Assembly: GCA_947625055.1 (NCBI GenBank)
Contig: CANQMT010000001.1
Location: 62,001-126,000 of the forward strand
Origin: an uncultured Monoglobus sp.
GTDB taxonomy: Bacteria > Bacillota > Clostridia > Monoglobales > Monoglobaceae
Reading direction: 5' to 3'
Length of the DNA stretch: 64,000 bases
Shown here piece after piece: positions 10,191 through 54,979 of this stretch. The stretch's first letter is position 1. Each line of letters opens with the position of its first letter. The notes beneath the pieces are model-generated. The model was not told where the DNA came from. It did no database searches and was given only the letters and a program-made list of their open reading frames with translations. Made by a program: the position numbers and the translations under genes.

Positions 10191-10388
10191 CTAACGTAGT
10201 GATTAGTTATTAGTGAATAGCGAATAGTAAGTCTGTCTCTCCCCCCCTTGGGGAACTAATATCAGGCTCTCCCTTTGGGGAGAGCTGTCAGGCGTAAGCC
10301 TGACTGAGAGGGGTCAACGTAGAGATTAGTTGAGTCCCGCCTCTCCCCTTGGGGAGAGGTGTCGCCGCAGGCGACGGAGAGGGGTCAA
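10191..10388. repeat. Composite intergenic repeat cluster A
   Basis: It begins with AACGTAGTGATTAGT next to the exporter's ribosome site. Two copies of a double-hairpin unit follow: a CTCTCCC/GGGGAGAG stem, a second stem (GTCAGGC-GCCTGAC at 10287-10304; GTCGCC-GGCGAC at 10361-10375), then GAGAGGGGTCAA. Between them AACGTAGAGATTAGT recurs (10316-10330). Related pieces occur near 25.6 and 62.4 kb. No gene is seen. Confidence 0.75.
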
Positions 10389-10395
10389 TTACCAA

Positions 10396-11772
10396 TTATT
10401 CCGCCAATGCCGCTTTCGCGTACAGGCTGCACTCAACGCGCTTCCTCATCATCTCGCAGCTCAGCTTGTGGGGCTTGTTGATGCTGCCGTTTATCAGGCA
10501 GGCGTTGGCAACGCAGCCGCCGCTGCAGAAAAACTTTGCGAAACAGTCGCGGCAGTCGGGCTTTGAGTATATATTGCAGGCCGCGAACTTATTTCGGAGA
10601 TCGCGGTCAAGCTCACACTCGTCGTAAATGCTGCCCATTTTATATTCCTCGCTGCCCACGAACTGGTGGCAGGGATAAACGTCCCCGTTGGGCGCGACTG
10701 CGATATACTCGCAGCCGCAGCCGCAGCCCGAAACTCTCTTGATAATGCACGGTCCCTCGTCAAGGTCGATCATAAAATGGAAAAAGTTAAAGCCCCTGCC
10801 CTCTTTTTTGCGGGCGACATATTCACGGACCAAGGTCTCATACTCGTCAAAGATCCTCGGCAGATCCTCCTCCCGCAAAGAATAATCGGTCTCCTCGCCG
10901 CTTACCACAGGCTCGACCGAGATCTGCTTAAATCCCAGATCGGCCAGATGCAGCACATCCTTTGAAAAGTCAAGATTATACCGCGTGAACGTGCCGCGAA
11001 CGTAATAATTGTCCTGACCGCGGCTCTGGGCCGTCTTTTGGAAGATCGGCACAATACTGTCATAGCTGCCCGTTCCGTCGGCGCGGCAGCGCACTCTGTC
11101 GTTTACCTCTTTTCTGCCGTCAATGCTCAACACGATATTTCCCATCTCGCGGTTTATAAACTCAAGCTTATCGTCGTCAAGCAATATACCATTGGTAGTT
11201 ATTGTAAAGCGGAATACCTTGTCATATTGCCTTTCGAGTTCTCGAGCATAGGAAACGATCTCCTTTACAGCCTCAAAATTCATAAGCGGCTCGCCGCCGA
11301 AAAAGTCGACCTCAAGATTGCGTCGGCTCCCGGAATTGCGCACGAGATAGTCCATCGCTCTCTTTCCGGTCTCGGCGCTCATAAGCTCGCGGCAGCCGCT
11401 GTGATACTGTCCTTCATCAGCGAAACAATACTTGCATCTTAAGTTGCAGTCGTGGCTTATGTGTAAACACATCGCCTTTACAGGTGCATTTTTCTTTAAG
11501 TCGTCATTATACTCAAAATCATCCTCCGCCCAGAGCATGTCGTTCCGTTTAAGCTCCGCCAGATCCTCGATGACCTCGGCGATATCCTCGGAATCATACT
11601 CTCTTTTAAACTCGCCAATAGTCTTAAACAGAGCCTCGTCATCCTCGGGGTCAAGACCCTTTACGTCAAGGAAATTCAGAACGTCATAGCTCAGCTTGTC
11701 CAACTCGTGGACGCAGCCGCTGTTGACGTCGAGCGCAATGTATTTGTCAAACATTTCAAACGTATGTATCAT
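10396..11772 (-). CDS. scfB: SCIFF radical SAM maturase (thioether-forming, SPASM type)
   Basis: A 458-residue radical SAM enzyme that installs a thioether crosslink in the SCIFF peptide encoded just upstream. Residues 1-95 resemble a RiPP recognition domain. The SAM-cluster motif is CNLRCKYC (Cys109, Cys113, Cys116). The FFGGEP motif follows. The C-terminal SPASM region is Cys-rich: GCGCGCEYIAVAPNGDVYPC, then CRDCFAKFFCSGGC, which bind auxiliary 4Fe-4S clusters. Length and gene order match the clostridial SCIFF system (CteB in Clostridium thermocellum makes a Cys-Thr thioether). A hairpin between peptide gene and maturase may lower its expression. The physiological role of SCIFF is not known. 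Confidence 0.93.
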   Translation of the reverse strand: MIHTFEMFDKYIALDVNSGCVHELDKLSYDVLNFLDVKGLDPEDDEALFKTIGEFKREYDSEDIAEVIEDLAELKRNDMLWAEDDFEYNDDLKKNAPVKAMCLHISHDCNLRCKYCFADEGQYHSGCRELMSAETGKRAMDYLVRNSGSRRNLEVDFFGGEPLMNFEAVKEIVSYARELERQYDKVFRFTITTNGILLDDDKLEFINREMGNIVLSIDGRKEVNDRVRCRADGTGSYDSIVPIFQKTAQSRGQDNYYVRGTFTRYNLDFSKDVLHLADLGFKQISVEPVVSGEETDYSLREEDLPRIFDEYETLVREYVARKKEGRGFNFFHFMIDLDEGPCIIKRVSGCGCGCEYIAVAPNGDVYPCHQFVGSEEYKMGSIYDECELDRDLRNKFAACNIYSKPDCRDCFAKFFCSGGCVANACLINGSINKPHKLSCEMMRKRVECSLYAKAALAE

Positions 11773-42304: not shown

Positions 42305-44077
42305 TTATTTATCAAATTTATTTTTGTCAATGACAATTATGGTATTATTTAATCCAAGCGCCCTGCGGTATTCTATTTTACTCGCAAGGTGGGATATAAG
42401 ATATATACCCAGTTTTTCATCATTTTCAGCCGGATTTTCATGAATATAGCGCACAGGATCAAACTCTCTGCCGTTATCACGCATACGCACTATTATTGAA
42501 TTATCCTTGTTTAAAATCATAATATCAAACCACTTTTTCTCACCCGGTGAAAAAGCGTGGCGGACGATATTTCCCGCCATTTCTTCTATGGAAAGTCCAA
42601 GCAAATTAAGCGTGTGGGTATCTATATCCGTTATCTGTGCGGTGTTCGTTATTTTTTCGGAAAGCTTTAAAACTTCATCCAAATCGTTGCCTATGGAAAC
42701 ATCCCAACGCTGCTTTCCCTGCGCTCCAAAATCTTTTCCGAGCATCATAAAATCGGAAAGCTCGGGCAGCACTTTTTTGCTTCGGCACAGCACGAATATG
42801 TAAAGAGTAATCGCGGTCAAAACCTCTCCGATCAAGAACGCGAACCACACGCCGTTGCTTCCGAACGGGCGAACCAGCGCAAGAGCCGCCAGCACTGCAT
42901 AGACAAACGACTCCAAGATACAAATCATGGTTGCCGTACTGCTTTTTCTTGTGCTTTGATAAAAGTTCATCCAAACCAGGTTAAATAGCTGAACGGGCAT
43001 ACTGACAGCAAACACGCGAACAGCGACTATCGCCATGCCAAGTGTTTCCTGGTCTGTTACTCCCAGCAGCTTTGCGAACAGCGGCGCTATTATCAGCAAC
43101 ACCACGGCTGCGATGCCGCTAAGCAGCATTCCTATTTTCAACGTCGTCCGTACAGTACTTTTAAGGGCAACCGGATCCTCTTCACCGAAAAACATTCCGG
43201 CGACCGGCAGCAGCGCCTGACCCACTCCCATAGTAACCGCTCCGATGATATTATATGCCTGAGTTCTGACATTAAGCGCGGCCACGGCTCCGACTCCCAC
43301 GACTGCGACTAACAGGTTATTAAATATTGCTGTTTCAAACGTTACGCAGACGCGGCTGATTGCAGTTGGCGCTCCCGAGGCGGTTATTGCTTTTAATTCG
43401 GTTATGAGCCTCTTCGGTACGGTAAAGCGCAGGGCGCGCTTTTTTTTCATAAAATGAGTCAGCGCTACCGCTACAGCCAGAAAATAGCTGATCGTTGTGG
43501 CAAGGGCCATGCCGAACATTCCTTGGTGAAAAACCAATACCATCATCAGATCCAGGATAATATCCATCGCGGACATAACTCCCATGGAGATCAGCGGCAT
43601 TTTTGCCGAACCGTCTATTTTTACAAATCCGGTCAGCGTCGGCAGCATGATTGTCGGAACAGCGCCAAGAAAATAACCGCGCAAATAATCGACCGTCGGT
43701 TTGACAAGCTCGTCTCGCGCTCCGAGCGCAACAGCGATCTGCGGTGCGAACGTCACACCGATGACCGTTAGTATTCCACCCACAATTATCGTATATGTTA
43801 TTCCTACGGAAAAAACACGGTTCAGTCGATCCGTATCGCCGCATCCGACAGCCTGAGCCGCCTGAGCGGTTCCTCCGGAAGAGGATATGTTTCCGACCAT
43901 TGAAAATATCAAGCTTATCGGTCCGACTATTCCCATCGCGCCAAGAGCGTTTGTTCCGAGGAAATGACCGACAACAATATTATCGATGAGCATACCTGCC
44001 GTGACAGCCAGCGCTGTCAGGATTGATACAAATAAAAATGATTGATATACCTTTTTTACCACATAATCGTTATTCAT
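42305..44077 (-). CDS. MATE transporter fused to a C-terminal HATPase (anti-sigma kinase-like) domain
   Basis: A 590-residue fusion. Residues 1-445 are a 12-helix MATE efflux transporter (ALAVTAGMLIDNIVVGHFLG, IISAMDIILDLMMVL-like repeats). Residues 455-590 are a GHKL ATPase of the SpoIIAB/RsbW type: N box SIEEMAGNIVRHAF, G1 MRDNGREFDP, and the glycine lid KLGIYLIS. The Glu of the N box and the DxG are intact, so ATP binding is likely. The fusion suggests that transport and a phospho-switch are physically linked. It is coupled to the upstream APH-like kinase (stop and start nearly touch). The substrate is unknown. Confidence 0.87.
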   Translation of the reverse strand: MNNDYVVKKVYQSFLFVSILTALAVTAGMLIDNIVVGHFLGTNALGAMGIVGPISLIFSMVGNISSSGGTAQAAQAVGCGDTDRLNRVFSVGITYTIIVGGILTVIGVTFAPQIAVALGARDELVKPTVDYLRGYFLGAVPTIMLPTLTGFVKIDGSAKMPLISMGVMSAMDIILDLMMVLVFHQGMFGMALATTISYFLAVAVALTHFMKKKRALRFTVPKRLITELKAITASGAPTAISRVCVTFETAIFNNLLVAVVGVGAVAALNVRTQAYNIIGAVTMGVGQALLPVAGMFFGEEDPVALKSTVRTTLKIGMLLSGIAAVVLLIIAPLFAKLLGVTDQETLGMAIVAVRVFAVSMPVQLFNLVWMNFYQSTRKSSTATMICILESFVYAVLAALALVRPFGSNGVWFAFLIGEVLTAITLYIFVLCRSKKVLPELSDFMMLGKDFGAQGKQRWDVSIGNDLDEVLKLSEKITNTAQITDIDTHTLNLLGLSIEEMAGNIVRHAFSPGEKKWFDIMILNKDNSIIVRMRDNGREFDPVRYIHENPAENDEKLGIYLISHLASKIEYRRALGLNNTIIVIDKNKFDK

Positions 44078-44078
44078 A

Positions 44079-45062
44079 TCAATTTGTTCCTTTACTCATC
44101 TCCGACATCGCATCAAGGATGTTGTCCGCTTTTAAAACCTGATTGTAATACGCCCGTATGCTTTCCATATCATTAATAATTCCGCAGTCTTCAATTTCCT
44201 GTAACGCAATCACGCTCAACGCGACGCGGTAATTTATAAACAGCTCCAGCTTATCCCAATAATTTTCGCCGCACTCTTTATTAAGGGAATATCCGATTTT
44301 AAGGTATGGCAGGATGTCCTCGGAAATCACCTTCCGGAAGTTTTCTCCGTGCATATACCCTCTTTGCAGAATATCAACAATAAAAACAGCAACATCAAGC
44401 AAATAATGTGCATATATGCAGCTATCAAAGTCAAACAGCCATATATTGTTTGTTTCCACAAAGAAATTGGCAAGATGAAAATCACCATGGCACAGACCAT
44501 ACACGCCGACATCTTTCGGCAACGCCTCGATTTCATTAACAATTCCCTCGATTTTATCCTGAATATCCTTGTCAAAACGATCACGCAAACGATTCCAGCG
44601 CCAGTCGAAATCCTCTTTCAAGGTTTTCCTTTTATAATGCATACCAAGTCTCTGCTCATCCTCGCTGGCCTTATGAATCATTCCGAGCAGTTCGCCAACG
44701 CATATAAAGAACATGGGTTTTACCTCGGTCACTGTCTGCACATTGCCGCGCGCTGTGCGGAACATACTCGCGCGGTATGTAATACCGTCAATCATAAATT
44801 CCTCAATTATTTTGTTTCTTAATGAGGTCGACGGCTCGCAGATGGTTTGTTTGAATTGCTTCAAATCGTCTACCCACATAAGCTCGCTTAAAAGTTCCTT
44901 CCGGCTCTTTTTCGGTGTCATGCTCACTCGTATCATATACGGTTTGCCGGGAAAAATAAACGCATAATTCTGTGTGGAAAATTTACATTCAGCTTCTTTA
45001 ATATCCATCCCGTAGTAATCCAGGAGAATCTCGCGCATTTGCTGCATTAACTTCTCATTCAT
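44079..45062 (-). CDS. Aminoglycoside phosphotransferase/choline kinase-like protein
   Basis: A 327-residue APH-fold kinase. The Brenner motif is LCHGDFHLANFF (catalytic Asp) and the metal-binding motif IWLFDFDSC. The N-terminal lobe is FIFPGKPYMIRVSMT with a Lys/Arg-rich stretch; the classic nucleotide Lys is replaced by R in MIRV. Substrates include sugars, choline, homoserine and drugs, so resistance cannot be assumed. Its stop is coupled to the MATE fusion gene, suggesting that the pair acts on one compound. AAAAAGGAG precedes the ATG; a 180-base leader precedes that. Confidence 0.8.
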   Translation of the reverse strand: MNEKLMQQMREILLDYYGMDIKEAECKFSTQNYAFIFPGKPYMIRVSMTPKKSRKELLSELMWVDDLKQFKQTICEPSTSLRNKIIEEFMIDGITYRASMFRTARGNVQTVTEVKPMFFICVGELLGMIHKASEDEQRLGMHYKRKTLKEDFDWRWNRLRDRFDKDIQDKIEGIVNEIEALPKDVGVYGLCHGDFHLANFFVETNNIWLFDFDSCIYAHYLLDVAVFIVDILQRGYMHGENFRKVISEDILPYLKIGYSLNKECGENYWDKLELFINYRVALSVIALQEIEDCGIINDMESIRAYYNQVLKADNILDAMSEMSKGTN

Positions 45063-46984: not shown

Positions 46985-48574
46985 ATGAGAATTAAAAGAT
47001 TAATTGCCGCGATTGCCGCAGCCGCAATAATAGTCCCGCTTCCGGTACACGCGGAAGCAGATTTGTTTTACATATGCGCCTATTACGGCGAGGACGGAAA
47101 TCTTATTGACGCCGTGGGGATAAGCGACGCCGCAAGCGATGATGAGATGAAAAACCGCCTTGACGCGTACGCTCCCGTCGGGACCTCGGAAGCCAGACTC
47201 TTCCGCTGGGACACAGATCTTGCCCCGGTCGAGGTACCGCTTGAATCGAACTATTTGAGCGGAGCCGACAGCGTCGGCGACATAAGCGACGGCACAATAA
47301 AGGCCCCGAACGTTATCGCCGAAATGTGCGTTTCGTCGTTCTGGACCGCAAAGCGCAGCGATCCCGACAGTATAATAATGAACGGGAACGAGATCGCAGC
47401 TCTCAACAGAAAAATACTTGACACGCCGGCCACGAACACAAACGACCTTTCGGCCATCGATGAGACATATAACGGTCGGAGCATGGCCGATTCGGCTGCG
47501 GCATTTGAGTCGCCGCCCGGACTTTACCTGAACGGAAATCCGGTTCCCGAGAGCTATTATCAGGCTGTCAGAGATAACATCAAAAACGCTCCGGTCACTG
47601 CAAACATGCGCCTCAAATACGGATTCGCGGTAAACCGCACGGAAATGAAGGCGTATCCATACCCTGATTATCTCTCCGACGATCCGAACGATCCCGAATG
47701 GGACGACCTTGTGTCGAGCGCGATTTTGGTGAACGAGCCACTGGTTATATATTTTACAACCGCCGACGGCAAATTCAGCTTTGTCAAAAGTGCGTGCTGC
47801 TCGGGCTGGGCACCCACAGAGGATATCGCGTTCTGCGCTGATAAAACCGAGTGGGAAAAAGCGCGTTCCCCCGAGCAATTCCTCGTTGTCACAGATCAAA
47901 AGGTCTATCTTGAGCCGAGCAGCGACGCCGACTTGAACGAAAAGCTGCTGACGATGGGAACATCTCTCGAACTTGTCACGGACCACAATGACAAGGTGGC
48001 GAACCGTCTGCCCTGGAACAACTACATCGTGAAGATCCCCGCGCGCCGCGAGGACGGCAGCTTTTATCAAAAGCTCGCCATGATCCCGCTTAACCGCGGA
48101 GTGAACGTGGGCTATCTGCCGTACAGCGAAAGCAACATAACAGATCTGGCGTTCAAATCGCTCGGCAACCGCTACGGCTGGGGAGGCATGATGAATTCAC
48201 AGGACTGCTCCTCCTTTGTGCGCGAGATCTACAAATGCTTCGGCTTTGAACTGCCAAGGAACACCACATGGCAGTCCGAAATACCCGCGGACGTTACCGA
48301 TATGAGCGCGATGACAAACGATCAGAAAAAGGCCTTGCTTGACACCCTTCCTCCGGGAGCGATCCTGATATTTCCCGGTCATGAGATGCTTTATATAGGC
48401 GAGGACAACGGTTTTTATTACACGGTGAACGACGTCAGCTCGCTTGTCAGCCCCGCGGATCCCGCGGGAGGCGTCATAAGGCCGCGCTCGGTCGTGCTCA
48501 ACGACCTTTCGACTCTCCGCGCGAACGGCACCACCTGGCTTGACAATCTGACAACGGCTGTTGTCATAAAATAA
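46985..48574 (+). CDS. Exported NlpC/P60 peptidoglycan hydrolase
   Basis: A 529-residue exported protein. Signal peptide: residues 1-23 ending VHA. Residues 25-90 form a small domain that is also present in the 5'-nucleotidase at 52829 (FYICAYYGEDGNLIDAVGIS, then ARLFRWDTDLAPVE). Two SH3-like modules lie around 210-390. The C-terminal NlpC/P60 domain (about 385-529) has the nucleophile Cys408 (SQDCSSFV) and His466 (FPGHEMLYIG). Such enzymes cut between D-Glu and the next residue in wall peptides. No ribosome site is visible before the ATG; it is probably coupled to ybjQ. Confidence 0.87.
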   Translation: MRIKRLIAAIAAAAIIVPLPVHAEADLFYICAYYGEDGNLIDAVGISDAASDDEMKNRLDAYAPVGTSEARLFRWDTDLAPVEVPLESNYLSGADSVGDISDGTIKAPNVIAEMCVSSFWTAKRSDPDSIIMNGNEIAALNRKILDTPATNTNDLSAIDETYNGRSMADSAAAFESPPGLYLNGNPVPESYYQAVRDNIKNAPVTANMRLKYGFAVNRTEMKAYPYPDYLSDDPNDPEWDDLVSSAILVNEPLVIYFTTADGKFSFVKSACCSGWAPTEDIAFCADKTEWEKARSPEQFLVVTDQKVYLEPSSDADLNEKLLTMGTSLELVTDHNDKVANRLPWNNYIVKIPARREDGSFYQKLAMIPLNRGVNVGYLPYSESNITDLAFKSLGNRYGWGGMMNSQDCSSFVREIYKCFGFELPRNTTWQSEIPADVTDMSAMTNDQKKALLDTLPPGAILIFPGHEMLYIGEDNGFYYTVNDVSSLVSPADPAGGVIRPRSVVLNDLSTLRANGTTWLDNLTTAVVIK

Positions 48575-48689: not shown

Positions 48690-48992
48690 ATGAAGATCAA
48701 TCTTAAACAAAACGATTCGAGCGTGACGATCGCGCTTGAAGGAAGACTTGATACGAACACCGCTCCCGAGCTTGAAAACAAACTCGGAGAGCTTGACGGC
48801 ATTAATGAGCTTTGCTTTGACTTCTCAGACCTTGTTTATATTTCCAGCGCAGGACTCAGGGTTCTGCTGGCCGCTCAGAAAAAGATGAACGCTTCGGACG
48901 GGAGCATGACGGTATTAAACCCGAACGAGCTTATAACCGAGGTTTTTGAGGCCACAGGCTTTGATGAGATCCTGGATATCAAAAACGCGTAA
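48690..48992 (+). CDS. STAS anti-sigma factor antagonist (RsbV/SpoIIAA type)
   Basis: A 100-residue STAS protein. GRLDTNTAPELENKL is the opening block, and FSDLVYISSAGLRVLL holds the phosphorylatable Ser-Ser pair typical of RsbV/SpoIIAA. Unphosphorylated antagonists bind an RsbW-type kinase and free its sigma factor or other target. It is convergent with the SpoIIE/RsbW hybrid, whose phosphatase would be expected to dephosphorylate it. GAAGGAG precedes the ATG. Cytoplasmic. Confidence 0.92.
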   Translation: MKINLKQNDSSVTIALEGRLDTNTAPELENKLGELDGINELCFDFSDLVYISSAGLRVLLAAQKKMNASDGSMTVLNPNELITEVFEATGFDEILDIKNA

Positions 48993-49009
48993 ATACTTAT
49001 TATGCCAAC

Positions 49010-49042
49010 AAAACCGCCGGCTTTGAAAGCCGGCGGTTTTTG
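49010..49042 (+). terminator. Bidirectional terminator
   Basis: Perfect stem AAAACCGCCGGCTTT / AAAGCCGGCGGTTTT, sharing bases in the loop, followed by TTTTT; serves STAS and the convergent hybrid. Confidence 0.85.
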
Positions 49043-49064
49043 ACTGCGCATATTTTGCGGCGCT

Positions 49065-51914
49065 TTAAAGCAGAGCGACGGTCAGGAGCAGCACGTTTTT
49101 GTCGCCCTCGCGAGTATACTCCATAGACTCGGTCATTTTGCGTACGAGCAGTATGCCCAGGCCTCCGATCTGACGCTCATCGGCCGACAGAGTGATGTCG
49201 GGCTCCGGAGCCTCGAGAGGATTATACGCCACTCCGTTGTCCTCAAATCTCAGATAAAGCTTTCCGTTCTTTATCGACCAGGATATCGAGGAGGAATTTG
49301 CGCGGCTGTGGTTCAGTATATTCGCGTAGATCTCGTCGATCGCTATGCTCACGCGGTTTCCGATCCTCGGTACCACGTCGAGCTTGGACTTGATCCTGTC
49401 GGTGAAGTCCATTACGGCCTCGGTGGATTTTTCTCCGGGAATAAAGGTTATCGAATTGTCGCCGCACACATAGTTGAGCGTGAAGCTAAGCATCGTTATG
49501 TCGTCGAACTGCGGCGTATCTGCTGCGAAGATATCCAAATCGGATTTTACCGCGCGGCAGATTCCCTCTGATCCGATCACGGCGTTCGAAGTGACAACTT
49601 TAAGCAGGCGCTCATCGCCGTAGAATTCCTCGTTTTTGTTGTTGGACTCCGTAACGCCGTCCGTATAGGCGAAGATCCGATCGCCCGGCATGAGCTGCAG
49701 CTCGTATCTGCGGTATTTGAGACCGTCCATGCCGCCCAGAACAAAACCCGCTTTCTGATTCATATACTCGCATGTGCCGTTGGCGCGGCAGATTATCGGC
49801 GGATTGTGGCCGGCGTTGGCGCAGGAGAGAAGACCGGTCTTTAAGTCAAGCACTCCGATCCACGCCGTAACGAACATGCCCGCGTCGTTGTTTTCACAGA
49901 GCTTCTCGTTCGCGTTTGTGAAGATATCCTCAACGCTCAGTCCGCTTTCGGCCAGATCCTTAATAACCGATTTCGCGCGCATCATGAACATCGCGGCAGG
50001 TATGCCCTTGCCTGAAACGTCAGCGATAACAAAGGCTATTGATGAATTGCTTAACATATAGAAGTCGTAAAAGTCTCCTCCTACTTCCTTCGCCGTGAAC
50101 ATCTGAGCGTAAACGTCAAATTCCTTTCTGCCGGGGAACGGCGGGAACACGGTAGGGATCGACGAATACTGTATCTGCTTGGCAAATTCGAGCTCTTTGT
50201 CGATCCTCGCCTCGGCTTCGGAAATATAGCGCTTCAGCGTGGTTACGGTCGAGTTGATGTCATCAGAGAGCGAGGCGAACTCACGGTTCGTGCGCACGTT
50301 AACGGTCACGTCAAGGTCGCCGCCGGTTATCTTTGAAAGCGAGCGGTTAATTTCATCTATATTGCTGATTATAACCTTTTTGAGCAGGAAGTATATCAAT
50401 ATGAACAGCATTGCGAATATGAGTATTTCCGTAAAGAGGCTCAGATATATCGAAACGTTGCTCATAAATTCGGCTTCGGATTTCGGGATCGCGCCGAATA
50501 TGTAATATCCCTCGACAAAGGCGTATTCACCAAAATACGTAGTGCCGTATATATTTGTTTCAAACACAGACCGCTCCGGGTTTGATTCGGTATCGACCCA
50601 GATCCCAAGCGCGCGGAGGTTCTTTCCCGAATACTCGCTGCCGATCGCGGCGATGTTCCAGTCTTTGTCGCAGATCACGATAAATCCGCTGTTGCCGATA
50701 TGACGGTTCCTGGCGATCTTGCCGACGAATGTGTCAATATCAGCCTTGAACTGGCTGTTGTCATATCCCACCTGAATGAACCCTCCGTCGGGAAGTGCAA
50801 CTGCGGCGTATTTTCTGTACTCGCCGCCGCTATAGGTTTGCGGCATGTAACGCTGAACGTAATAGTCAGCCTCTCCTCTGTTGATCACCAGGAATTCTGC
50901 CGCCTGTTCACCGGAGCTCATGTCAAATCCGATATAATCGGGGTTGCTTCCCGCGGTGATTATACCGTTTTTATCAATAATATTTATCTCTTTGGTGTTA
51001 TATTGCTCGGCTAACCTAATGAAATATTCGGTATCGCCTCCGCCCGAGGCAATGTACGAATTCGCGATGACGCGGGTCTTATCCAAAAGATTTTCGTCCG
51101 AGACGTCGCTTATGTCCTCGATGACGTCGCCGATGCTGGTGGTTATCACCGATTCGCTCTCCATGCTTGACATTCTGCTCTGGAGAACAAATGTGAATAC
51201 ACTTGTCAGTGTGTAGGCTATCACAACGCAGATAAACAGCCACTTCTGAAAAGTTTTTGAAATGCGTTTCTCATTCTTATCCGATAACTTAAACGGAAGC
51301 AGTGGCCTCTCGCGGCTTACAAGCGTCACGGATATGATAGAAAATCCGACCGCGAGAAGATTGTACAAAATCATCGGCAGAGTCGCGCCGCGCACAAACG
51401 AAAATGCCGTCAAAGCGTCATTCATGTTCGTAAAGAAGATCATCAGCATGTGGAATACCTCGCAGATGACCGCGGCTCCCACGCCGTATACCCATGTCGC
51501 CTTTTTGTCGTCAAACATCACCTTTCTCAGCCATGCGGCAAATATGCTGGCAACAACGGTCGAGATCGAACAGGCGATCTGCGTGTATGTTCCCGCGAGG
51601 CCGAAAAACGGCGCAACAAAGCGGTACACGCCTCCGACAATACCCGCTGTTATACCCGCAGTGCCGCCGAAAATAAGAGCGGCGCATATCGGCGAGGCGT
51701 CGCGCACGTTAATTATAACGCCGGAGCCGATATTAACGCCGATATAGTCGGTGCTCGAGATGATAGCGAGCGCGCCGAACAGGACGCCGATAATAAGCTG
51801 GCGTGCGCGTTTGTTGATCTTTCCGAAAGAAGTTTTAGTCTCCGCAAGATACAAAATGACCGACATTGCGGCGTTGTACAGCACGGGCAGAACAAGCGTG
51901 AAACTCATAAGCAA
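49065..51914 (-). CDS. Membrane sensor hybrid: LytS-like 5TM, Cache-like sensor, HAMP, SpoIIE phosphatase, RsbW-type ATPase
   Basis: A 949-residue multidomain protein. Residues 1-210: 5TM LYT-like membrane unit (TDYIGVNIGSGVIINVRDASP). About 228-500: membrane-bound extracytoplasmic sensor of Cache type. About 505-560: HAMP-like region. About 585-790: SpoIIE PP2C phosphatase (AKEVGGDFYDFY, ADVSGKGIPAAMFM, YTDGVTES, FDDITML). About 815-949: RsbW-like ATPase (SIAIDEIYANILNHS, FEDNGVAYNP, GGLGILLVRKM). It thus carries both the phosphatase and the kinase of a partner-switch. The obvious substrate is the STAS protein at 48690. Start: ATG 51914 after GGAGTGATT. Confidence 0.9.
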   Translation of the reverse strand: MLMSFTLVLPVLYNAAMSVILYLAETKTSFGKINKRARQLIIGVLFGALAIISSTDYIGVNIGSGVIINVRDASPICAALIFGGTAGITAGIVGGVYRFVAPFFGLAGTYTQIACSISTVVASIFAAWLRKVMFDDKKATWVYGVGAAVICEVFHMLMIFFTNMNDALTAFSFVRGATLPMILYNLLAVGFSIISVTLVSRERPLLPFKLSDKNEKRISKTFQKWLFICVVIAYTLTSVFTFVLQSRMSSMESESVITTSIGDVIEDISDVSDENLLDKTRVIANSYIASGGGDTEYFIRLAEQYNTKEINIIDKNGIITAGSNPDYIGFDMSSGEQAAEFLVINRGEADYYVQRYMPQTYSGGEYRKYAAVALPDGGFIQVGYDNSQFKADIDTFVGKIARNRHIGNSGFIVICDKDWNIAAIGSEYSGKNLRALGIWVDTESNPERSVFETNIYGTTYFGEYAFVEGYYIFGAIPKSEAEFMSNVSIYLSLFTEILIFAMLFILIYFLLKKVIISNIDEINRSLSKITGGDLDVTVNVRTNREFASLSDDINSTVTTLKRYISEAEARIDKELEFAKQIQYSSIPTVFPPFPGRKEFDVYAQMFTAKEVGGDFYDFYMLSNSSIAFVIADVSGKGIPAAMFMMRAKSVIKDLAESGLSVEDIFTNANEKLCENNDAGMFVTAWIGVLDLKTGLLSCANAGHNPPIICRANGTCEYMNQKAGFVLGGMDGLKYRRYELQLMPGDRIFAYTDGVTESNNKNEEFYGDERLLKVVTSNAVIGSEGICRAVKSDLDIFAADTPQFDDITMLSFTLNYVCGDNSITFIPGEKSTEAVMDFTDRIKSKLDVVPRIGNRVSIAIDEIYANILNHSRANSSSISWSIKNGKLYLRFEDNGVAYNPLEAPEPDITLSADERQIGGLGILLVRKMTESMEYTREGDKNVLLLTVALL

Positions 51915-52042
51915 TCACTCCAAATCACATTATTATTTTTCATTATATCACAAAATAACGCGCGTGCGCAATACGTTTTTTGTCTGTGTGGCGTCATTTC
52001 ACGCCTTAAAACAAACTTTTCACGCAAAATCTCAACTTATTA

Positions 52043-52071
52043 TTGCAATTTCCGAAAAAATAATATATAAT
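52043..52071 (+). promoter_or_regulatory. Promoter of the 52171 gene
   Basis: TTGCAA (52043-52048), 17 bases, TATAAT (52066-52071). Confidence 0.78.
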
Positions 52072-52170
52072 AGTAAAATAATAAAAAATTTCCGTCCGGA
52101 TCAACATTAAACGCGATAAAGAATTTAACAGCTCCGTGACGAATGTATCAGTTATGAAAGAGGTGCCGAA

Positions 52171-52782
52171 ATGAAAACAGACGTATGTAAATTAACAAAT
52201 GACAAGTCCACCTTGGACAGTATTCTTGCAGAGGCCGAAAAATCCGCCGAATACAATAATCTTACTCCGAAACAGTCGCTTCAACTGCGGCTGCTGGCCG
52301 AGGAGATGGTCGGAATGATGCCCGAACTGCTCGAGATAGGCAGCGGCGAGTTTTGGGTAGAAAACGACGGACCCGAATTTGAGCTTCACGCGGCGATCAA
52401 AACAAAGCGTATGAGTATGGACAAAAAAGAGGAGATCATGTCGTTTTCCAAATCGGGCATAAATGCGTCGGCTAAGGGAATCATCAACAAGATCAAAATC
52501 GTGGTCGAGAGCATGGCCGACGGATATGCCGAGGCTTCGAAATACTCGGGCGACTCTAACCTTGAGTTTTACGATATGGGCTCGGCTTCAAGCGGACTGT
52601 ATAACGATCTTTGGTCAGGCGCCTGGTCGCTCAGCAGCTACAGATCAAACGCTGAAAAAAGCGATGACAAGAAATCGTGGGACGAGCTCGAAAAGTCGGT
52701 CATCGCCAATATCGCAGACGATGTTATCGTCGGCTACGTCGGACGCAAGGTCGATATAATCATTAAAAAGAAATTTGACTGA
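52171..52782 (+). CDS. Degenerate HATPase-like protein, possible anti-sigma partner
   Basis: A 203-residue protein. LTPKQSLQLRLLAEEMVGMM resembles the N box of RsbW-type ATPases but lacks the Asn that binds Mg-ATP. FWVENDGPEFELHAAIKT matches the next strand, and the end (WDELEKSVIANIADDVIVGY, then IIIKKKFD) is like the last part of that family. No DxGxG or glycine lid is seen. It may be a pseudoenzyme that binds the STAS or sigma partner without phosphorylating. It is divergent from the SpoIIE hybrid. Family membership is inference from weak similarity. Confidence 0.6.
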   Translation: MKTDVCKLTNDKSTLDSILAEAEKSAEYNNLTPKQSLQLRLLAEEMVGMMPELLEIGSGEFWVENDGPEFELHAAIKTKRMSMDKKEEIMSFSKSGINASAKGIINKIKIVVESMADGYAEASKYSGDSNLEFYDMGSASSGLYNDLWSGAWSLSSYRSNAEKSDDKKSWDELEKSVIANIADDVIVGYVGRKVDIIIKKKFD

Positions 52783-52828: not shown

Positions 52829-54979
52829 TTATTTCCGGTACTCAAGGCGGGGATAGCCGAGGTTCAGGCTGCCGTAAACATCAAGAACTCCGTTGCCGCT
52901 GTAGTTGTTGACAAACACCTCGTTTTGGTCCGGGTAAAGCTTGACAGAGTGCGCGCCGTCGGGAACGGTGATGTCGATCAATCCGTCTTTTACGACACCC
53001 GGCACGGGCGAGAGCTTGCCGTCTATATAGAAATCCACGGTGTCGCCGTCTTTAAGATCATCGCCGCTCAGCGGTGTTATGTGAGCCGTGTAATCCTTCG
53101 GCTTATAAGCTCCGTCGGTGGTTATCCTGCCCGAAGTCGTGGGAACCGCCAGAGGCTTCTCTCCGTTGTTTGTCAAAGTGTTTATGTGAGCAATTACAGC
53201 CTCCGCAAGGCCGCTTCCCTCCGCGATCAACGGAATGTTCTTAAACTCGCCCTGCTCGATGACATAATCGTTAGAGGCAAGGATAATCTTTGTGTCAGCG
53301 TCGTTTTTGTCAAGCTCGGTACCGTCCGCGAGCGTGATGCCGCCGATCTTTTCGCCGACCTCCTTGTTGGGGTCATAACGCACACTCATTCCGCCTATCT
53401 GCGGGAAGCTTCCCGAATAACCGGCGGTGAGAAATCCCGTCTCGGGATCCTGAGCGGTCACAGACGACAAATATCCCTCAAGCGCCGTGAAAAGTATCGC
53501 CGGCGTGATCTCCTTGATACGAACCGTGTTGGAATAAGGCAGGGCGTTGATTATGCTTCCGATAGTGAACTCGCCGTTGGGGACCGACGCGCGGAAACCT
53601 CCGCCGTTCTCTATAGCCACGATCGGCTCGTTTATTTTTCCGCTGTTGTCACGATATTTGTCGGGGGCTATGTTTTCAGCTTCGGTGATCATAGCATCGC
53701 ATATCAGACTGCCGAAGTTTGTCTCGCCCACGCGGCTTTCGGCGATCGATGTTCCGCCGGGTATGTTGACAAGGCCGCCGCCCCAAAGCGTGATCTCGTT
53801 GTCGCCGAGCTTCTGCGCCAGCGTCTTGTTGAGTTCATCACTGACGTCTTTTATCACTTTCGTGACCGCGGGATCGGGGGTAATGTTGTCAAAGAACGCG
53901 CGGGAGAGCATCGTCTCAGTGATAGTAAGATTATTGTTTTCATCAAAATCGATCTCCATTCTGCCGAGATTTGCGCCGCCCGTACCCGTCTGAGCTATCG
54001 TTATGCCGCCTATATTATCGTTCATGACAGTATGGCTGTGTCCGTCGATTATCGCGTCAAGCTCGGTGCCCTCCATAGCTGCCGCAAGCTTGTCGCTTGT
54101 GCAGTAGCCCTGATCGGTCACGCCCATGTGTGCGAGAGCGATGATCACATCAGCGCCCTGCTTGTCGAGGTACTCCGTCTGAGCCTTCGCGGTCTCGACT
54201 TCATCCTTGAACTCAATGCCCTCAAGGTTCTCGGGCTTGGTGGAAACCTCGGTGTCGCGGGTGGTCAGAGCGAATATGCCGATTTTTATGCCGTTCTTTT
54301 CAACAATATAATTCTCGCCGTTCGTCTTTCCGTCTATCGCGCAGAGCGGAGCCCCGTTTTGATATGTATTGGCAGAGATCATCGGAAAATCCGACATGTT
54401 TCTCAGCGCCGCGAGCTGCTCAAGGCCGAAATCAAATTCATGATTGCCGAGGGCCATAACATCGTAGCCCGCGGCATTCATGATCTTTATTACGTCTTCG
54501 CCTTTTGACTGCGAGCCGAGAGCCAGACCCTGGGTCGCGTCGCCGCTGTCGGCGAGGATCGCGCCGTCCAGCTTTTTCAGCGCCGCCACGCTGTCTGCGC
54601 CGATCACAGATGACGAGCCGACCAGCGCGCCGTGCATATCGTTGCTGTGCAGGATCACCGCGCTCCTCTCGGCGTCGGTGATGTCGATTTCCTTTGCTAC
54701 GCCGAGCGGCTCAAGATCGGCGGTCCATTCAAAGACCCTTGCCGTCTCCGCCGCGTCGGGCTCATAGATATTGACAAGCGCCTCAAGCTCACCGTCGCTC
54801 AGCGTTCCGCTTATGCACTTCGCGTCGAGCAGCGCGCCCGAGCCGTCGTAATACGCCGCAAAATGAATGTAGCTTTCCTGCTCCGCGTCCTCCGCAAACA
54901 CGGGCGACAGGGTCAAAATCATTGCCGCCGTAAGAACAAGCGCAGAAATTTTTTGTGTAAATGGTCTTTTCATCATCAT
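52829..54979 (-). CDS. Exported 5'-nucleotidase/metallophosphatase
   Basis: A 716-residue exported enzyme of the UshA/5'-nucleotidase family. Signal peptide 1-29. Residues 35-95 hold a domain also seen in the NlpC/P60 protein at 46985 (FAAYYDGSGALLDAKCIS, ARVFEWTADLEPLG). The metallophosphatase core has SNDMHGAL, DSGDATQGL, ALGNHEFDFG, AHMG and DGHSHTVM; the C-terminal nucleotide-binding domain follows. Residues 625-716 add a small beta domain. There is no LPXTG anchor. It likely releases phosphate from extracellular nucleotides. AGGAGG precedes the ATG cluster at 54979. Confidence 0.9.
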   Translation of the reverse strand: MMMKRPFTQKISALVLTAAMILTLSPVFAEDAEQESYIHFAAYYDGSGALLDAKCISGTLSDGELEALVNIYEPDAAETARVFEWTADLEPLGVAKEIDITDAERSAVILHSNDMHGALVGSSSVIGADSVAALKKLDGAILADSGDATQGLALGSQSKGEDVIKIMNAAGYDVMALGNHEFDFGLEQLAALRNMSDFPMISANTYQNGAPLCAIDGKTNGENYIVEKNGIKIGIFALTTRDTEVSTKPENLEGIEFKDEVETAKAQTEYLDKQGADVIIALAHMGVTDQGYCTSDKLAAAMEGTELDAIIDGHSHTVMNDNIGGITIAQTGTGGANLGRMEIDFDENNNLTITETMLSRAFFDNITPDPAVTKVIKDVSDELNKTLAQKLGDNEITLWGGGLVNIPGGTSIAESRVGETNFGSLICDAMITEAENIAPDKYRDNSGKINEPIVAIENGGGFRASVPNGEFTIGSIINALPYSNTVRIKEITPAILFTALEGYLSSVTAQDPETGFLTAGYSGSFPQIGGMSVRYDPNKEVGEKIGGITLADGTELDKNDADTKIILASNDYVIEQGEFKNIPLIAEGSGLAEAVIAHINTLTNNGEKPLAVPTTSGRITTDGAYKPKDYTAHITPLSGDDLKDGDTVDFYIDGKLSPVPGVVKDGLIDITVPDGAHSVKLYPDQNEVFVNNYSGNGVLDVYGSLNLGYPRLEYRK

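Follow-up and report, generated by a model that had tools for sequence, protein, structure and literature searches.

In the usual partner switch, a single active kinase doubles as the target-binding protein. The Bacillus subtilis switches SpoIIE/SpoIIAA/SpoIIAB and RsbU/V/W have the same three domain types as the locus described here and presumably use the same phospho-serine chemistry, but in them one active kinase both phosphorylates the STAS protein and binds the sigma factor. Closer in domain order are HsbR-HsbA (PA3346/PA3347) of Pseudomonas aeruginosa and CrsR-CrsA of Shewanella oneidensis, in which a PP2C phosphatase and a GHKL kinase domain share one chain and act on one STAS protein (PMC6482189, PMC8256260). 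In Rv1364c of Mycobacterium tuberculosis (PDB 3ke6), too, one polypeptide combines RsbU- and RsbW-type domains. The roles of kinase and target binder are split among RsbW1, RsbW2 and RsbW3 of M. smegmatis, some homologues being devoid of kinase activity (PMC7693655). Finally, the partner switch SiaABC(D) of P. aeruginosa, composed of a membrane PP2C phosphatase, the RsbW-fold protein SiaB and a STAS-like protein, has an output other than a sigma factor (PMC7647112).

We analyzed a 64,000-nucleotide stretch (the window) from the genome of an uncultured gut Monoglobus in which a sequence-only reading had placed three open reading frames of a partner-switch module at 48690-48992, 49065-51914 and 52171-52782. 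All three were present: a STAS antagonist, a membrane-bound phosphatase-kinase hybrid and a 203-residue protein, here called D203. The reading had treated the fusion of phosphatase and kinase as unusual, and here it does not hold: such fusions are already known from HsbR and CrsR (PMC6482189), PA3346 (PMC8256260) and Rv1364c (3ke6), and the first two of these papers suffice to rule out any claim that the fusion is new. The locus differs from its precedents in other respects. HsbR and CrsR take their input through a receiver domain and their kinase domain also binds RpoS, whereas here the sensor is in the membrane and a separate, kinase-dead D203 accompanies the STAS protein. Rv1364c has a PAS sensor, and a separate D203-like partner is not described for it in the literature that we compared. 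In contrast to the M. smegmatis RsbWs, which are recognized homologues, D203 belongs to a separate family that has no Pfam match, has its lid region extended by an insertion and also occurs in a tandem-fused form. In SiaABC(D), unlike here, the phosphatase stands apart from the kinase SiaB, which is active, and there is no dead partner. What appears to be new, judging from sequence comparisons and a predicted fold, is D203 itself, a family of its own that has no name, shows the RsbW fold, lacks an ATP site and is coupled to STAS proteins across two phyla.

The hybrid sensor and the STAS antagonist

The hybrid sensor is encoded on the minus strand (49065..51908) and comprises 947 residues, with seven predicted transmembrane helices, a SpoIIE domain and a HATPase_c_2 domain. 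The frame at 49065-51914 gives 949 residues if counted from the TTG at 51914; the ATG at 51908 is the more likely start, since it is preceded by a GGAGT ribosome site and relatives of the protein start there, at residue 3 of the 949-residue frame. Its N-terminal part matched the 5TM-5TMR_LYT model (residues 35-192, 51339..51812, minus strand; PF07694, E value = 9e-22). Hydropathy placed about 250 residues between the sixth and seventh (the last two) predicted helices, and this putative extracytoplasmic sensor segment (approximately residues 245-492, 50439..51182, minus strand) had no Pfam match. Of the proposed 5TM/Cache sensor, the 5TM part was matched; no Cache model matched the window's hybrid in the Pfam search. 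A dCache_1 domain is present in some phosphatases related to the hybrid. A HAMP-like linker follows (residues 514-561, 50232..50375, minus strand), scoring 21.3 bits against PF00672, under the cut-off of 25. Response_reg gave no Pfam match at the N terminus of the hybrid, where the 5TM and HAMP-like regions are found instead of a receiver domain.

Both enzymatic domains retain the motifs needed for catalysis. The SpoIIE-type PP2C phosphatase domain (residues 624-811, 49482..50045, minus strand; PF07228, E value = 1e-50) comes with intact metal-binding motifs GGDFYD, DVSGKG, TDGVTE and DDIT, located at residues 612-807. The RsbW-type HATPase_c_2 kinase domain (residues 843-945, 49080..49388, minus strand; PF13581, E value = 5e-13) retains the N box (EIYAN), the G1 box (DNG) and the G2 box (GGLG). 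With Pfam matches to both domains and catalytic motifs kept, the assignment of a SpoIIE phosphatase and an RsbW-type ATPase to one 949-residue protein was borne out.

The STAS antagonist, a protein of 100 residues (48690..48992, plus strand), was also correctly recognized from the sequence: it matched PF01740 (E value = 1.9e-14) and the anti-sigma factor antagonist model TIGR00377 (E value = 2e-19, 69.5 bits versus a cut-off of 53.45). It fell under the cut-off of the SpoIIAA equivalog TIGR02886 (51.6 bits versus 114.75). The phospho-serine motif YISSAGL is intact, and its Ser53 (codon 48846-48848), which we aligned by eye with Ser58 of SpoIIAA, is the probable phospho-acceptor. A motif of this type is kept across the D203-linked STAS proteins with a readable motif region. 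In a weakly resolved tree of 96 columns, the D203-paired STAS proteins clustered away from SpoIIAA and from STAS-APH fusions. The same genome encodes a separate SpoIIAA/SpoIIAB-type STAS/HATPase pair on contig C9 and SpoIIE on contig C19.

Other STAS-containing proteins were seen in passing. STAS-APH fusions recur next to the trio (L035:7809-8984; L050:3590-4765 and 10355-11539), and a STAS-APH-HATPase triple fusion is found at L129:12451-14040 and L130:5343-6914. Elsewhere in the window's own genome (locus L023; G000 contig C6, at about 91.3 kb), a protein roughly 416 residues long has a C-terminal STAS domain preceded by a region that, by eye, looks methyltransferase-like.

D203 as a sequence family and its predicted fold

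D203 (203 residues; 52171..52782, plus strand) is assigned as an RsbW-fold protein without ATP-binding motifs on the basis of an AlphaFold2 model, fold matches and a residue table. Searches of Pfam, NCBIfam and PDB sequences gave no match, a profile search of PDB sequences was likewise empty, nothing better than an E value of 0.05 was obtained with PHROGs, and a HATPase match was found in none of 41 family members. Its homologues are 76 to 87% identical within the genus and 24 to 65% identical beyond it. That the frame is spurious or a decaying pseudogene was ruled out by 52 homologous domain sequences and their high conservation; at one homologous locus (L086), the gene is split between frames.

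The AlphaFold2 model, built from an alignment of 52 diverse sequences, had a pLDDT of 77.8 and a pTM of 0.77, and it superseded an earlier run from 11 close sequences that reached a pLDDT of only 52. Residues 80-150, which constitute the insertion in the former lid region, were poorly modelled. When compared with solved structures, the model was closest to RsbW (Z = 11.7), UsfX (Z = 10.9), the RsbW domain of Rv1364c (Z = 10.6), SpoIIAB (Z = 10.4) and SiaB (Z = 10.1), all of them STAS-binding RsbW-type proteins, followed by LvrC (Z = 8.4) and histidine-kinase domains (Z of about 5). In Foldseek, SpoIIAB came first, at an E value of only 1.8e-3. At the sequence level, the resemblance was weak: D203 scored 29.7 against a profile of the HATPase domains from these loci, versus a decoy maximum of 22.1, with a probability of 32% and over the N-terminal half only.

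Across the 52 sequences, the N-box and G1 motifs of the ATP site have been lost. The position of the N-box Asn (E-x-x-x-N), as taken from the profile alignment, is occupied by M, L, I or F in 52 of 52 sequences, and the G1 box DxGxG is missing from the stretch that follows the hairpin's second strand, again in all 52. At the presumed G2 site, which was aligned by eye, the sequence of D203 is ELEKS, in which E174 and S176 do not vary; L41, E44, E45 and N98 are the other residues invariant in the 52 sequences. The sequence-only reading, in which the 203-residue protein resembled RsbW/SpoIIAB without the ATP-binding residues, agrees with the absent motifs and with a predicted fold at Z values of 10 to 12; an unrelated fold, which would have spoken against it, was not what the model gave. 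D203 looks like an RsbW fold that was stripped of its ATP motifs and then kept under new constraints. Loss of the motifs would not by itself establish that nucleotide binding is lost. In role D203 may resemble part of RsbW, yet it appears to fail the features that define the kinase, and for this reason we did not class it as an RsbW. Butyrivibrio-type genomes encode tandem D203 fusions of 399 to 415 residues, which suggest that D203 probably works as a dimer.

Co-occurrence of the trio and conservation of the STAS-D203 pair

Next, we looked into how the three genes are distributed. Of 38 genomes of the bacterial family, 11 encode D203, 13 the full hybrid, which in one case is cut by a contig end, and 12 the STAS orthologue. 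The three differ in occurrence only where a contig ends: in G033 and G036 the contig stops 49 and 24 nt, respectively, beyond the hybrid's final matched base, and in G008 it ends within the hybrid. The STAS gene of G007 and G012 is on a different contig and is still the closest orthologue (86 to 87% identity). One congener (G005, 99% complete) has none of the three genes. In a sister genus, STAS, hybrid and D203 stand in one operon-like row. This arrangement, together with the co-occurrence, indicates that the trio is a functional set that has been rearranged in the window's genus, and the expectation that the same trio would be met in relatives was upheld within the family. Two upstream stretches contained no repeats. 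The trio is flanked by genes for an NlpC/P60 protein (46985-48574) and a 5'-nucleotidase (52829-54979), which share an N-terminal stretch about 80 residues long, with about 35% identity between orthologues.

What is conserved at the core, a point absent from the sequence-only reading, is the pair of STAS and D203. We collected 69 D203 loci, near relatives among them. At 56 of them a STAS gene is no more than 3.5 kb away from D203, and at 28 the two genes are direct neighbors on one strand, in either order and at a spacing of -26 to 101 nt, the negative values depending on the choice of start codon. A PP2C gene was found within 5 kb in 39 of the 69 loci and a HATPase gene within 5 kb in 42. The sensors near D203 vary, from 5TM hybrids to PP2C and HATPase encoded as separate genes to none nearby; an obligate trio is ruled out by the many loci at which phosphatase and kinase come from separate genes or are missing from the vicinity. 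The remaining 13 loci show no STAS gene within 3.5 kb, several of them being truncated by a contig end or belonging to genomes that encode STAS at another place. STAS was not seen near D203 at L084 or on plasmid pNP243 of the culturable strain Butyrivibrio fibrisolvens D1 (L167:9341-10540), where a tandem D203 (WP_073389494.1) that carries the annotation "hypothetical protein" lies next to genes for an EAL-domain protein and a response regulator.

Scanning species genomes yielded 45 further D203 loci. D203 was present in 30 of 391 genomes in a class-wide sample and in 4 of 398 in a phylum-wide sample, which added two genomes outside the class. Its distribution is patchy, and its hosts include Monoglobus, other Clostridia, Ruminococcus, Eubacteriaceae, Butyrivibrio and Treponema. 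STAS stands next to D203 in Treponema and in another Bacillota class as well. Such linkage of genes need not mean that the two proteins bind each other. At two loci, a condensation-domain protein with a weak cyclic-nucleotide-binding match is encoded upstream of the STAS-D203 pair (L168:6282-8186 and L169:6106-7974).

A proposed mechanism and candidate targets of D203

The simplest reading of these data is that the role of RsbW has been divided, with the kinase now in the sensor and the read-out in D203. The 5TM and extracytoplasmic parts of the membrane hybrid would sense a signal; the GHKL domain of the hybrid would phosphorylate, and its PP2C domain dephosphorylate, Ser53 of the STAS protein, so that the balance of the two activities would determine the phosphorylation state of STAS. 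Unphosphorylated STAS would then bind D203, probably a dimer, which, its nucleotide site lost, would be unable to phosphorylate STAS, leaving binding to depend only on the action of the sensor. Upon binding, D203 would release or seize a target of its own. We infer this sequence of steps, STAS-D203 binding included; what the analysis shows is the gene anatomy, the motifs intact in the hybrid and in STAS but lost in D203, the predicted fold of D203, and the co-occurrence and linkage of the genes. To the core of this proposal, namely, that a STAS state set by the sensor is read by a non-kinase RsbW-fold partner, we give a probability of roughly 0.6. That D203 is the output of the module is plausible. 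Since the genome codes for further HATPase and STAS proteins, a switch set by the sensor alone is unproven. A wider proposal, which we hold at less than even odds, is that D203 represents an undescribed class of STAS effectors, RsbW-fold proteins devoid of kinase activity that provide a general read-out of STAS phosphorylation to various sensors in Bacillota and Spirochaetota and whose targets extend to non-sigma outputs, peptide export for instance.

The hints as to the target diverge: ECF neighbors suggest an anti-sigma factor, while NHLP/NHLM clusters suggest export. If D203 were a kinase-less anti-sigma factor that sequesters an ECF-type sigma factor and is made to release it by unphosphorylated STAS, this would specify the last step of the mechanism. 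ECF sigma genes next to D203 in two lineages make this our leading guess, albeit a tentative one that we hold at less than even odds. At L119, an ECF sigma gene, a tandem D203 and a STAS gene are consecutive, with gaps of 62 and 21 nt; homologous ECF genes lie about 0.5 to 0.8 kb from D203 at L081 and L082; and the predicted fold of D203 is that of anti-sigma factors. However, ECF genes stand beside D203 in only 3 of the 69 loci and none is next to the window's trio. The sequence-only reading had noted that no sigma factor lies alongside, and indeed the nearest Sigma70_r2 match is at about 1405-1614 of the window, some 47 kb off; none of the nine Sigma70_r2 proteins in the genome could be assigned to D203. 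Rather than acting on transcription, the STAS-D203 pair might act directly on a membrane transporter such as the NHLP/NHLM peptide exporters. STAS-D203 pairs are found inside NHLM export clusters in several lineages, NHLM is enriched in D203 genomes (7 of 30 versus 16 of 361; Fisher test, P value = 8e-4, uncorrected for kinship), MATE-HATPase fusions recur around D203, and MlaB sets a precedent as a STAS protein within an ABC transporter complex (PMC7367683). We consider direct action on a transporter doubtful, since 23 of the 30 D203 genomes, the window's included, have no NHLM match at the strict threshold; the same count rules out NHLM export as a universal partner of D203, and no NHLP/NHLM cluster is next to the window's trio.

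Two further explanations concern what D203 does rather than what it targets. As a pseudokinase, it could pair with the HATPase domain of the hybrid and tune or block STAS phosphorylation, the output of the switch lying elsewhere. RsbW-type proteins do dimerize, RsbW3 of M. smegmatis acts by pairing with RsbW1 (PMC7693655), and the hybrid adjoins D203 in the window's family. Nevertheless, tandem D203 fusions indicate self-pairing, STAS-D203 pairs of Treponema have no HATPase within 8 kb, and a HATPase gene accompanies D203 less often than a STAS gene does, which together make a pseudokinase unlikely, though somewhat less so than direct action on a transporter. We regard it as quite improbable that the former ATP pocket holds another ligand, making D203 an additional sensor through which a metabolite signal would be combined with the state of STAS. 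Six residues are invariant, several of them in regions of the former nucleotide motifs according to the sequence alignment, and the conservation of D203 exceeds what a plain loss of function would keep; yet the N-box Asn and the DxGxG loop are missing in every sequence, the invariant residues may make protein contacts, and nothing points to a particular ligand.

Under the divided-role reading, the functions of RsbW appear to be split, and the binding role would fall to a degenerate paralogue family that is unnamed in the libraries we searched. If this is true, many STAS proteins of gut and rumen bacteria that have no obvious anti-sigma partner would gain one, and "hypothetical proteins" adjoining STAS genes would become readable. 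The trio would also separate the setting of the STAS phosphate from its reading, two steps that are hard to disentangle in RsbW.

A literature search for NHLP together with STAS and SpoIIE found no paper. Partner-switch genes were present in NHLP/NHLM clusters at nine loci (L074, L075, L077, L079, L083, L087, L119, L158 and L177), several with STAS-D203; those at L158 and L177 contain STAS and PP2C without D203. Within the window, a MATE transporter with a C-terminal RsbW-type HATPase domain is encoded at 42305-45062 (minus strand) and adjoins a gene for an APH-family kinase. A second MATE-HATPase fusion is encoded elsewhere in the same genome (L003), and others lie near D203 at L084, L127 and L129.
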